This document shows, in pieces, positions 18,135 to 22,830 of a DNA stretch of 64,000 nt. Origin of the DNA: an uncultured Phycisphaeraceae bacterium (lineage in GTDB: Bacteria; Planctomycetota; Phycisphaerae; Phycisphaerales; UBA1924). The stretch lies in assembly GCA_937899905.1 (NCBI GenBank), contig CALCCF010000049.1, forward strand, positions 1-64,000, in the 5' to 3' direction. Within the stretch, counting starts at the first letter, position 1. Every line of letters starts with the position of its first letter. Under the pieces are notes generated by a model that saw only the letters and a list, made by a program, of their open reading frames with translations, searched no databases and was not told the origin of the DNA. The translations under genes and the position numbers were made by a program.

Positions 18135-19244
18135 CTAGACGTTGAACAGGAAGTGGCACACGTCGCCGTCTTGCATGGCGTAGTCCTTGCCCTCGACGCG
18201 GAGCTTGCCCGCTTCCTTGATGGCCTTCTCGCTGCCGAACTCGTCGAGCTCATCCACGCCGTAGATATTGGCGCGAATGAACCCACGCTCGAAGTCGGTG
18301 TGGATCACGCCCGCGGCCTGTGGCGCGGTGGCGCCCTGCCGAACGGTCCACGCGCGGATTTCCTTCTCGCCCGCGGTGTAGAAGCTCTGGAGCCCCAGCA
18401 GGCGGTAGGCCTCGTTGGCCAGTTTGTTGAGCGCCGGCTCGTCCATGCCGTAGTCGGCGAGCATCTCGGCCTTGTCCTCGGGATCCAGCTCGGCCAGCTC
18501 GCTCTCGATCTTCGCGCACACGGGCACGAACGCGTTGCCCTCGGCCCCGGCATGCGCCCGGACCTTCGCGGCCAGCTCGCCCTCGCCGTTGGAATCGCTC
18601 TCGTCCACGTTGGCAATGTACAGGATGGGCTTGGCGGTGATCAGCCCCAGACCGCGCCAGGCCTTGCTCTGTTCGGCGTCGATAATTTCGCCCGCGATGA
18701 CGCGCGCCGGCTTGCCCTCCTCAAGCACGGGCTTGATCTTCTGTAGCACCGCGAACCGCGCAACGGCCTCGGGTTCGCGGCTCTTCGCGGCCCGCTCGGC
18801 CTTGGAGAGCGCGCTCTCGACGGTCTGCAGATCCGCCAGCAGCAGCTCGCTGTTGATCGTCTCGATGTCGCGGATCGGATCGACCGAGCCGTCCACGTGC
18901 AGGATCTCCTCGCCCCCTGGCGCCTTCTCGAAGCACCGGACAACCTGGGCGATCGCGTCGACCTCGCGGATGTTGCTCAGGAACGCGTTGCCCTTGCCGG
19001 CACCCTCGCTTGCGCCACGCACCAGGCCGGCGATGTCGACAAGCCGCATCGATGCTGGGATGACCTTCTGGGTCTCGATGTGCGCGTTGATGCGGGCCAG
19101 ATTGCCATCGGGAATGGGCACGATGCCCACGTTCGGCTCGATCGTGGCGAACGGGTAGTTCGCGGCCAGCGCGCCCGCGTTGGTCAGTGCGTTGAAGAGG
19201 GTCGACTTGCCGACGTTGGGCAGCCCGACGATGCCTGCATCCAT
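18135..19244 (-). CDS. ychF: ribosome-associated ATPase YchF
   Basis: YchF (Ola1) is a universally conserved Obg-family P-loop NTPase that prefers ATP and binds ribosomes. The 369 residues fit the family. It opens [17 protein letters not shown] (G1). [20 protein letters not shown] carries G3, and YIANVDES is the altered G4 motif that explains the ATP preference. The C-terminal TGS domain ends [17 protein letters not shown]. The gene converges on the Lon-domain gene with 22 bases between stops and no obvious terminator. Confidence 0.97.
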
Positions 19245-19422: not shown

Positions 19423-19805
19423 GCGCTCGTAGCTCAGCAGGACAGAGCAACGGTTTCCTTCGTCAAAGAGGGGCCCGGCCCGGAAACGGGCCGAGGCGAA
19501 CCGGGTGAACTCGGGGAACCCCCACCCACTCTCGCAGTGGCGGGCGATCCCGAGCCGAGCCGCCGACGGGGCGGGCCTCGAACCCTCGAGGCGCGGTCGG
19601 CGGAAGGTGTAGAGACCAGCGGGTGAGCCGCCCCGGCAATACCCCCGCACCCGCATTGGCCGGTGCCAACGCGGGAAGCGCCCGGCACCCTACCCACGCA
19701 CTCCGATACGGAGCTGCCTGGCGGGTGAAGAGATGGTCCGGTCCGCGGCGGAAGCCGTGGGTTTGCCGAAACCGTAGGTCGGAGGTTCGAGTCCTCCCGG
19801 GCGCG
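19423..19805 (+). tRNA. tRNA-Arg(CCU), interrupted by an intron
   Basis: The exons are 19423-19459 and 19769-19805. Acceptor GCGCTCG pairs with CGGGCGC (19798-19804), and the D-stem GCTC pairs with GAGC. The anticodon stem ACGGT (19450-19454) pairs with ACCGT (19771-19775), and the T-arm is GGAGG-TTCGAGT-CCTCC. The rejoined anticodon loop reads TT-CCT-AA, giving anticodon CCU for the AGG arginine codon. The intron lies after the third anticodon base. The discriminator is G (19805) and CCA is not encoded. Each part pairs only if the middle segment is removed. Confidence 0.9.
19460..19768 (+). ncRNA. group I intron in the anticodon loop of tRNA-Arg
   Basis: This 309-base insert follows the U of the CCU anticodon and ends in G, as group I introns do. 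P7 can be formed by GACCA (19614-19618) and TGGTC (19734-19738). The latter sits in GAAGAGATGGTCC, which matches the conserved J8/7-P7 region. Near the 5' end CGGCCCG-GAAA-CGGGCCG (19476-19493) is a perfect hairpin with a GAAA tetraloop, a usual docking element. No homing-endonuclease gene is present. It most resembles the small tRNA introns of class IC3; the exact pairing of P1 is not clear from reading alone. Confidence 0.85.
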
Positions 19806-20339: not shown

Positions 20340-21293
20340 TTAGTCGAACGCCGCGCTGTTGCTGGGCACCTCAACCGAGCGCAGCCTCAGCGTGGTTTCG
20401 ATCCGGAAGTTGGACCGGCTGTAGTGCCGCTCGGCGAAGAACACCTTCAGCTCGTACTCACCGCCGTCTTCCAGGAAGTTCAGGCGGCTCAGGTCAACGG
20501 TCTGGCTGCTCGCGCCGTGCACGCCGCCCAGATCGATGACCATCTTGCCGTCGATGAACACCCAGACGTCGTCATCGCCGTAGAAGGTGAACACGTTGTC
20601 AGCCGACGCGTCGTAGATGAACTCGGTCGCCAGCTCGTACGTGAAGTGGTAGTTGTGCGGCTTGGTGCCGCCCGCCGAGTTGCCGTACAGCTCGTTGTTG
20701 ATCGGGAAGAACCCCTCGATCTCGCTGGTGCCGCCGATGTCGTGCGCGTGGAACACGTACCGGTTGGTTCCCGGCTCGCGCTCCAGCGTGATCGACACGG
20801 GCTTGGCCAGGTTCACACCCGGAACCGTGCGGAACCACTGGCTGAAGGTATCGGCGTCGGTGACCACGCTGCCGCTCTGGGCGTTCAGGCTACCCGTCTG
20901 ATCGCCCTCGCGGCTGTCCATGTAGTCCACCTCGGACGCCATCGGGAACATGGCGCGGCCCCGGCTGTCCTTGAAGCTGCCACTGGGCTTGAACCCCTTG
21001 GGCGCTTCACCCAGCGCCGGCTTGCCGTCTTCATCCAACTCAAAACCGACCCAACCGACGCGCAGGCCCGTCAGGTACCGCTGGAAGTCCGGATGCCCGC
21101 CCTCGCCATGCGGACGGAAGTCACGGACCGTGCCGGTCAGCTGCAGCTGGCTTGGCAGATCCCCATACTGGTCCATGGACTGGCCGTCCTGGGCCCAAGC
21201 CACGGTAGTGCCGCCACTCAGCGCGACGATGCCGGCCACGCCGACCGCGCCTGCGGCCCGCACGATCCGGCGAGTAGTTTGACCATTTCGCAT
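20340..21293 (-). CDS. secreted fibro-slime domain protein, paralogue 1
   Basis: A 317-residue exported protein. The N-terminus (MRNGQTTRRIVRAAGAVGVAGIVAL in short form) is a signal peptide cut near AWAQ. The rest matches the fibro-slime domain first seen in Dictyostelium and found in several bacteria: LTGTVRDFRPHGEGGHPDFQ at the start, GFFPINNELYGN in the middle, FTYELATEFIYD and then GDDDVWVFIDGKMVIDLGGVH. The last part is a PA14-like beta fold with a calcium-type loop. The start at 21293 is set by GGAGG 5 bases upstream. It is a close paralogue of the next gene. Confidence 0.85.
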   Translation of the reverse strand: MRNGQTTRRIVRAAGAVGVAGIVALSGGTTVAWAQDGQSMDQYGDLPSQLQLTGTVRDFRPHGEGGHPDFQRYLTGLRVGWVGFELDEDGKPALGEAPKGFKPSGSFKDSRGRAMFPMASEVDYMDSREGDQTGSLNAQSGSVVTDADTFSQWFRTVPGVNLAKPVSITLEREPGTNRYVFHAHDIGGTSEIEGFFPINNELYGNSAGGTKPHNYHFTYELATEFIYDASADNVFTFYGDDDVWVFIDGKMVIDLGGVHGASSQTVDLSRLNFLEDGGEYELKVFFAERHYSRSNFRIETTLRLRSVEVPSNSAAFD

Positions 21294-21347
21294 CGTTGCC
21301 TCCAAACTGCCGACCATCGGCATCTATCCCGGATCCACCGGGCGAAA

Positions 21348-21576: not shown

Positions 21577-22527
21577 TCAGTCGAACGAACCCGCGACAGT
21601 CGGAATGTCAACGCTGCGGAGCGTCAGCGTGGTCTCGATCCGGAAGTTCGACTGGCTCGTGCGCCGCTCGGCATGGAAGATCTTGAGGTTGTACTCCTCA
21701 CCATCCTCCAGCCAGTCCAGACGGCTCAGGTCCAGGAACTGCTCGCGACGCGGGTGCAGGCCGCCCAGGTCAACGACGAGCTTGCCATCGATGAACACCC
21801 ACACGTCATCGTCGCCGGTGAATTTGAACACCGGGTTTGAGTCGGCGTCGTAGATGAACTCGGTGTCGATCATCGTGGTGAAGTGGAAGTTCTTGCCACC
21901 CGAGTAATCGCCGTAGCCCTCGCCGTTGATCGGGAAGAAGCCGCCCGACGACTTGAAAGGCTCGTCTTGAGCAGAGTCGAACACGTAGGTGTTCGTGCCC
22001 GGCTTGCGCTTGAGCGTGATCGGCTTGGCCATGCGAACGTTCACGCCTGGAGTATCGCGGTACCACTGCGCGAAGCTCTCCTCGGACGCGAATCCGTTGC
22101 TCGACGGGCCGCTCGAGAGCGAACCCTCCTGATCACCGAGGTCGGGGTTGAACAGCGCGGGATTGATGTTCCGCCCCTGGGAGTCCTTGTACTCCTTGGA
22201 GATCTTCATGCCGCGGAGGCTCTTGACGACTGGGAGGCCGTCTTCATCGAGGTGGTCCTCGACGAGTCCGACGGTCGTGTTGCCGCTAAATGCCTGGAAG
22301 TCGGGGTGGCCGCCGTCGCCCTTGGCGCGGAAGTCACGGATTACCGCCGTGAGGCTCAGCTCGGACGGAAGATCGGCGTGGGGATCCGACGAGGAGCCGC
22401 CAATGCCGTCTTGCGTCGATGACGCGCCCGAAGCCACCGCGGTGCCGCCAGCAAGGGCGACGATGCCGGCCACGCCGACCGCGCTCGCGGCCCGGACGAT
22501 CCGGCGAGTTTTATGACCATTTCGCAT
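21577..22527 (-). CDS. secreted fibro-slime domain protein, paralogue 2
   Basis: A 316-residue exported protein with the same architecture as the preceding paralogue. The signal region (MRNGHKTRRIVRAA) and the start site with its GGAGG are almost the same as in gene 1. The domain shows LTAVIRDFRAKGDGGHPDFQ, GGFFPINGEGYGDY, DTEFIYDADSNPVF and GDDDVWVFIDGKLVVDLGGLH, and both end RIETTLxLRSVxxP. The two genes arose by tandem duplication and have since diverged in the middle. A surface or matrix role is likely from the domain, but no partner is known. Confidence 0.85.
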   Translation of the reverse strand: MRNGHKTRRIVRAASAVGVAGIVALAGGTAVASGASSTQDGIGGSSSDPHADLPSELSLTAVIRDFRAKGDGGHPDFQAFSGNTTVGLVEDHLDEDGLPVVKSLRGMKISKEYKDSQGRNINPALFNPDLGDQEGSLSSGPSSNGFASEESFAQWYRDTPGVNVRMAKPITLKRKPGTNTYVFDSAQDEPFKSSGGFFPINGEGYGDYSGGKNFHFTTMIDTEFIYDADSNPVFKFTGDDDVWVFIDGKLVVDLGGLHPRREQFLDLSRLDWLEDGEEYNLKIFHAERRTSQSNFRIETTLTLRSVDIPTVAGSFD

Positions 22528-22830
22528 CGCTGCCTCCAATGCCGGCCCTGCCGGCCTCGCTCGCGGCTTGCCCCAACGCGGAGCGCCGCCAGTACCCGTA
22601 CAGCCTCGATTGCGGTTCATCCCCATGCCAGCCAAGGCAAGCCCGATGCGCGGATTTCTGGGCCGGATGTGCAGGGTGGAGAAGCGCAAACGACAGCGCG
22701 GGGCCGATTCCAACGCTGCTGGGCCCCTGCCGCCGATGAATCCGCTGACGGCGGGAGGTACTCGGACCCTTCGCCGGCGTACGCTGGACGAAGCGTCGGC
22801 CCAAGGCTCGGGCGACACGGAGAAGCACGC
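22528..22830. other. 303-base divergent intergenic region
   Basis: It separates fibro-slime gene 2 (leftward) from murA (rightward) and must hold both promoters. TACGCT at about 22786 is a possible -10 box for murA, but no matching -35 box is visible. I see no gene or RNA structure here. Confidence 0.4.

Follow-up and report, generated by a model that had tools for sequence, protein, structure and literature searches.

The stretch of DNA analysed here, designated the window, spans 64,000 bases of contig C49, which is 64,612 bases long and belongs to a planctomycete genome of 3.63 Mb and 113 contigs. A tRNA-Arg(CCU) gene is confirmed at positions 19423–19805 of the window, split behind U36 by a group I intron of 309 nt. 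With high confidence the insert is regarded as a group I ribozyme of the P7.1 (IA-like) class, which would remove itself to give a normal tRNA-Arg(CCU) and is resident beside the ychF gene in its genus; judged from its sequence and relatives, the intron is real and very probably active. This reading draws directly on the position of the insert, its fold as seen by covariation across the class, its conservation, the lack of a detectable intact copy of the gene, and a build unlike that of three alphaproteobacterial tRNA-Arg(CCU) introns. Group I introns of tRNA genes are already known; less expected are a second build at this bond and an island found in another genome of the family (G097).

Structure and recognition of the intron

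When the exons 19423–19459 and 19769–19805 are joined, ARAGORN reports a single complete tRNA-Arg(CCT) of 74 nt, and a cloverleaf with the anticodon CCU is obtained once the insert is removed, as proposed in the initial annotation, whose coordinates and splice points proved correct to the base. The 5' exon ends in U36, which places the insertion behind the third anticodon base as described there, and the last base of the insert is G. The arms do pair after removal of the insert, but not "perfectly" as had been claimed, since the acceptor stem holds one U.G pair and is not all Watson-Crick. In the unjoined sequence ARAGORN at default settings did not call the split gene; with introns allowed it called 19423–19805, misplaced the intron and read the anticodon as cgg. 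No second copy of either exon was found within the window. The description as a compact intron without an endonuclease gene also agrees with the Pfam search, where none of the five ORFs overlapping the insert gave a match (0/5) and no endonuclease was found. Two PA14-domain proteins that look related are encoded side by side on the minus strand (20340–21323 and 21577–22818), immediately downstream of the tRNA gene.

Table 1. Features of the split tRNA-Arg(CCU) gene and its neighbour, in window positions.
Feature	Positions	Strand	Basis
ychF, adjoins split tRNA gene in 7/7 genus genomes	18135–19244	-	Pfam, neighbourhood comparison
5' exon of tRNA-Arg(CCU), ends in anticodon CCU (19457–19459)	19423–19459	+	sequence, ARAGORN on joined exons
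P1: exon UCCU and intron UC with GAGGGG (19468–19473); U36 pairs with G19470	19456–19473	+	sequence; U.G in 10/10 aligned
309-nt group I intron with terminal G	19460–19768	+	R2 match 19499–19739, E 1.7e-17; relatives
P2 hairpin, GAAA loop	19476–19493	+	sequence, alignment
P3 5' strand CCGGGUG, partner 19679–19685	19501–19507	+	covariation; compensating change in L092
P4 5' strand, partner 19549–19554	19510–19515	+	covariation
P4 3' strand	19549–19554	+	covariation
P6 5' strand, partner 19596–19603	19560–19567	+	covariation
GGGGC in P6 internal loop, proposed contact with GCCCC 19630–19634	19568–19572	+	complementary runs; weak by fixed columns
P6 3' strand	19596–19603	+	covariation
P7 5' strand GACCA, partner 19734–19738	19614–19618	+	covariation
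P7.1 domain: GCGGG 19619–19623 with CCCGC 19644–19648, enclosing hairpin 19627–19637	19619–19648	+	covariation
Variable hairpin between P7.1 and P3 (P7.2-like)	19650–19675	+	sequence; absent in G022
P3 3' strand CGCCCGG	19679–19685	+	covariation
P8: 19686–19690 with 19723–19727	19686–19727	+	covariation
J8/7 AAGAGA	19728–19733	+	sequence
P7 3' strand UGGUC	19734–19738	+	covariation
P9 hairpin, GGAA loop	19743–19760	+	sequence, alignment
3' exon of tRNA-Arg(CCU)	19769–19805	+	sequence, ARAGORN on joined exons

The fold in Table 1 has the P3–P8 core of group I introns with the P4, P6 and P7 pairings, and at the splice site the exon-end U pairs with G in P1 (10/10 aligned introns) and the intron ends in G. 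All 24 of 24 extracted introns likewise show the exon U and the terminal G, although both were required for extraction. Three elements named in the initial annotation find their place in this fold: the GACCA/TGGTC pair is P7, the GAAA-capped hairpin is P2, and the core motif GAAGAGA holds J8/7. Placement of P3 just after GACCA, as in IC3 introns, gave a poor helix only and was replaced by CCGGGUG/CGCCCGG. No P10 was found by eye.

Covariation was studied on 148 distinct introns with the R motif, of which 134 fit the P3 and S rules and were aligned and 14 were dropped. P3, P4, P6, P7 and P8 covary beyond shuffles across these 134 introns, the shuffles ignoring relatedness; for example, the first P3 pair is CG in 70, UA in 49 and GC in 8 of 131 introns, and the fourth P7 pair is UA in 109, CG in 24 and UG in 1 of 134. 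P7.1 covaries as well (second pair CG 65, GC 32, AU 22 and UA 8 of 134); among the 23 sequences of the window's family set it is nearly invariant, and thus its covariation support comes from the wider class. In L092 a compensating change in P3 gives UCGGGUG/CGCCCGA against CCGGGUG/CGCCCGG of the window. For the whole structure on 30 introns 95.3% of cells were paired, compared with 79.5% in shuffled and 30.7–47.0% in slid controls.

The loop of the P7.1 hairpin shows complementarity with the internal loop of P6: the longest complementary run averages 3.24 over 127 distinct pairs, compared with 2.64 for permuted loop pairs and a maximum of 2.81 in 1000 permutations, and the partners vary (GGTC/GACC, AGAT/ATCT, GCCAT/ATGGC). 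Counted in fixed columns the contact is weak, with 57.4% of cells paired, which speaks against the favoured explanation, though perhaps because the loops differ in length. In the window the proposed contact would join the GGGGC and GCCCC runs given in Table 1.

Two covariance models were built, R1 from the window intron and nine relatives, and R2 from 30 introns that do not belong to the window's family and of which none was seen in tRNA-Arg(CCU); these came from scanning named genomes and viral contigs for motifs (the genome scan gave at least 117 stretches). The sole match of R2 in the 64-kb window up to E 10 spans 19499–19739 with 65.4 bits and a rough E-value of 1.7e-17, and together with the covarying core helices it bears out the assignment to compact group I introns. 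Moreover, in 10 of the 41 genomes searched (the window's own, 6 of the genus and 3 from other genera) the match extends over all or almost all of the 383 nt; with the single match of the held-out model, this means that the split gene is not due to chance, and its presence in the one-contig genome G004 shows that it is no assembly artefact. R2 matched all 31 loci of its test set, which includes P7.1-less introns, so that an R2 match stands for group I and not for the P7.1 class, and it aligns poorly to the window over the stretch that begins at P7.1 and ends at the P3 3' strand, which also counts against the favoured explanation.

The Rfam model RF00028, set beforehand as a test, failed to recognize the window copy: there was no match in the window at the gathering score (50 bits), none in the locus up to E 1 and none in the genome itself. 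A relaxed threshold run on 17 loci put four introns of the P7.1 class (L203, L164, L102, L119) and three P7.1-less ones (L322, L324, L293) at or above the gathering score, with L294 (44.8 bits), the sister copy L004 (31.3) and L303 (26.6) below it, and L295, L001, L009, L086, L136, L291 and L292 not listed at E 0.01. Because four introns of the same P7.1 class pass and the sister copy reaches 31.3 bits, the miss is read as a false negative; the gathering score is a library cut-off rather than a defining trait of group I introns. This agrees with an archaeal search summarized in PMC6125680, in which RF00028 gave no significant matches, yet IA3 and IB4 models found introns. The default settings of the standard tRNA finder and the Rfam model thus both miss the gene, and a genome can therefore look as if it lacked a tRNA. 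Among the papers searched, none dealt with both group I introns and Phycisphaer- lineages, and the sole match to group I intron, tRNA-Arg and Planctomycetes concerned Thiomargarita.

According to the chemistry expected for such a fold, the intron in the precursor tRNA would fold through P3–P8 with the guanosine site in P7, and P1 would hold the 5' exon through the U36.G wobble. Guanosine would then attack after U36, and U36 would in turn attack after the terminal G, giving the normal tRNA-Arg(CCU).

Use and history of the split gene

In its own genome 47 matches to RF00005 were obtained, and ARAGORN on these loci reported the arginine tRNAs TCT, ACG (two) and CCG but no intact CCT tRNA. With R1 the intron was found in 23 of 163 family genomes and in 16 of 74 genera, the G061 copy being cut by a contig end. 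None of these 23 genomes has an intact CCU gene by either the inclusive or the stricter pattern, while 126 of the 140 intron-free genomes of the family match the inclusive pattern and the stricter one finds 68 family genomes. The chance of 0 in 23 would be 1.1e-18 if genomes were independent, which they are not. Neither form was seen by these searches in 14 of 163 genomes, 10 of them less than 90% complete and 4 at least 90% complete, which counts against the favoured explanation. The intact tRNA-Arg(CCU) elsewhere, which the initial annotation had named as grounds for doubt, was thus found neither among the genome's own tRNA loci nor in the 23 intron genomes. Since intron and intact CCU gene exclude each other (0/23 vs 126/140), the split gene is probably spliced and used. 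In locus L061 (G000:C40:30094-30778) four tRNA-like calls are clustered, one without a readable anticodon, perhaps as a tRNA array on a mobile element.

The further claim that AGG, which makes up 14 of the 255 arginine codons in ten window ORFs, can be read only if this gene splices is not supported, because the genome has a tRNA-Arg(UCU) (L032), whose U34 can in principle read AGG. The presence of this tRNA, like the failure of RF00028 to reach the window copy, would suit a dead remnant whose insert no longer splices, AGG being left to tRNA-Arg(UCU). Such decay is very unlikely: all 7 of the 7 genus genomes retain the core, the exons and the U.G pair at the splice site, the helices are maintained by compensating changes throughout the class, and the intron and the intact CCU gene are mutually exclusive.

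The initial annotation had left it undecided whether the intron was long settled or laterally acquired, and both appear to hold, in different parts of the family. In 7 of 7 genomes of the genus the split gene lies about 170–185 nt from ychF, and in G018 an intact CCU gene stands in the same divergent arrangement with ychF; in the window's genus the intron is a resident at a stable locus, where its descent may be vertical. Its occurrence at one locus in all seven genomes, together with the correlation of intron and YchF identities (r 0.59 over 231 pairs), would also fit purely vertical inheritance in the whole family with losses elsewhere. This is unlikely in view of G071 and G097, which belong to different genera and have YchF proteins only 59.9% identical, yet their exons do not differ at all and their introns agree at 88.6%, a value that ranks second among the 231 intron pairs. 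Their congeners (G111 and G133 for G071; G012 and G125 for G097) carry intact CCU genes with other exon sequences, and the G097 copy lies on an island that splits a resident gene. Pure vertical descent is therefore contradicted for this pair unless binning errors are assumed (contigs of 82.6 and 658 kb), and with a contig of 658 kb misbinning of G097 is unlikely. Exons are identical in G021 as well, and the 18-kb surroundings of the three copies share little beyond the tRNA gene (380–402 nt); comparison of the G111 locus with G071 gave no clear empty site. By these comparisons, transfer of the split gene from genus to genus appears to have taken place in other parts of the family.

An island carrying a split gene

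The G097 island of about 15 kb (L355:1-10528 and L361:15456-20000; contig C2, about 401456–416527) carries the split tRNA gene, an adjoining tyrosine integrase (PF00589 and PF13356), a DNA methyltransferase, a Prim-Pol protein and an HATPase protein weakly similar to restriction enzymes. Next to the integrase lies the 5' half of the intact tRNA-Arg(CCU) gene of its congener G012 (44/44 nt), broken after TTTCCTAAACG, and the 3' half (50 nt, 98%) is found 14,978 bp away on the same contig; the two halves share query positions 33–44, i.e., the anticodon arm. Neither end yielded a restored CCU gene by ARAGORN. Our reading is that the island would have inserted into the resident anticodon arm and brought an intron-split replacement with an interrupted attachment core. 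No relatives of this integrase were found at E 1e-4 in the other loci examined, nor within the window, and the window locus, with no integrase relative and no tRNA fragment, does not resemble such an island.

In tRNA-integrating islands an attP fragment usually restores the tRNA gene. The island of G097 is alike in being an integrase island at an anticodon-arm site with broken tRNA halves at its ends; unlike them, both halves stay broken and a whole intron-split replacement lies inside. An anticodon-centred site is reported for 2083 of 3919 islands in PMC4383910, about half of those mapped there. The G097 island offers a testable reason why introns without an endonuclease sit in the anticodon loop.

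The island also illustrates concretely how such introns could be moved, and a broader idea, tentative and rather improbable, is that tRNA introns lacking an endonuclease are carried along when a whole split tRNA gene spreads. The island integrase would target the anticodon arm, break the resident tRNA and supply the intron-split copy, which could not be attacked by the same integrase since the intron cuts the attachment core in two. If true, the intron would protect the tRNA gene against anticodon-targeted integration and make the island self-immune; that it protects the G097 copy is an inference from one case. The basis of the idea, suggestive only, is this one clear island and half-tRNA fragments near intron-bearing tRNA genes. 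Such fragments, broken near the anticodon, adjoin tRNA genes with introns in Betaproteobacteria, Rhodopila and Splendidivirga. Within 1.5 kb they were found for 10 of 65 named intron-tRNA genes, 8 of them tRNA-Ile2(CAU) of Burkholderiales or betaproteobacteria, the corresponding figures being 9 of 152 for the remaining tRNAs of those loci, 0 of 35 for the window's own genome and 0 of 19 for control loci; in the window's set the survey gave 0 of 23 and missed the known G097 fragment. The survey is weak: the fragments are suggestive, yet they come from few lineages, and islands commonly leave such debris. In L098, L099, L109, L117, L135, L158, L179 and L187, all from Burkholderiales or betaproteobacteria, a broken 5' half of the same tRNA was noted 130–264 nt upstream of intron-bearing tRNA-Ile2(CAU)-like genes.

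Two builds at one bond and comparison with known introns

The tRNA-Arg(CCU) group I introns of Alphaproteobacteria are of the Agrobacterium type and belong to subgroup IC3, in which P3 directly follows P7 without P7.1. In the window P3 does not follow P7 directly: about 60 nt with a covarying P7.1 separate them. R1 matches 34 of 289 genomes of the class of Rhodopila (Alphaproteobacteria), and among the loci L296–L324 the host tRNA was assigned by the tRNA finder in 12 of 29, L310 being doubtful. Three loci, L303, L322 and L324, are tRNA-Arg(CCU) genes with an intron after U36 (253, 228 and 236 nt), where P7 runs straight into a 6-bp P3 and P7.1 is absent. Their P3 (CCGCTC/GGGCGG, CCGCTC/GGGTGG and CCACTC/GGGTGG, respectively) was read by eye at the homologous place, the longest-run search having returned other stretches. 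In another planctomycete family a P7.1-type intron occupies the same tRNA-Arg(CCU) bond (L295).

The kinship to proteobacterial tRNA-Arg(CCU) introns suggested in the initial annotation therefore stands as to tRNA and bond but is incomplete, the three alphaproteobacterial copies having another build. The shared tRNA and bond, as well as Q and R motifs so alike that R1 and R2 match both builds, could suggest that the window holds the same canonical (IC3-like) intron as this alphaproteobacterial site, acquired laterally; given the P7–P3 stretch with covarying P7.1 in the window against its absence from L303, L322 and L324, this origin has little probability. Group I introns of two builds occupy a single bond of a single tRNA in different groups of bacteria, and either separate arrival of the two builds or gain or loss of P7.1 in place may explain it.

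Related introns were also noted in other hosts. A planctomycete tRNA-Asn(GUU) gene, identified by eye (L095 and L294, G346), is split by a group I intron that separates positions 35 and 36 and whose P7–P3 stretch differs from the TGAG type. P7.1-less introns occur in finder-assigned alphaproteobacterial tRNA-Lys (L300, L305, L311, L312, L316, L318) and tRNA-Thr(GGU) (L301, L309). Two Rhodopila genomes (G460, G461; L291 and L292 with L289 and L290) have introns of the two builds: the one in tRNA-Asn is of the P7.1 type, whereas that in a Leu-like tRNA gene, read by eye, lacks P7.1.

As to known systems, the alphaproteobacterial tRNA-Arg(CCU) introns are alike in host tRNA, bond after U36, no need of an endonuclease and similar size (228–253 nt), and unlike in that P3 directly follows P7 without P7.1. 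Subgroup IA introns share P7.1, which in the window likewise lies between the P7 5' strand and the P3 3' strand; in IA its loop pairs with P6 to form P11, which the contact proposed for the window, positive by complementary runs and weak by fixed columns, resembles. The window intron is assigned to the P7.1 class and is IA-like, the exact subgroup name being a matter of inference; it differs in sitting in a tRNA. Both IA2 introns and an LSU rRNA intron are described as having P7.1/P7.2 (PMC4227781, PMC1995217). Group I introns are also reported in tRNA-Ile2 of Acidovorax and Burkholderia (PMC8450103). The P7.1 introns of bacterial tRNA-Ile2(CAU) (Burkholderiales) and tRNA-Asn(GUU) have the same core, P7.1 and proposed P6 contact, and members of this set pass RF00028; they differ in their host tRNAs, and in the window copy G+C is higher and P7.1 is separated from P3 by an additional hairpin.
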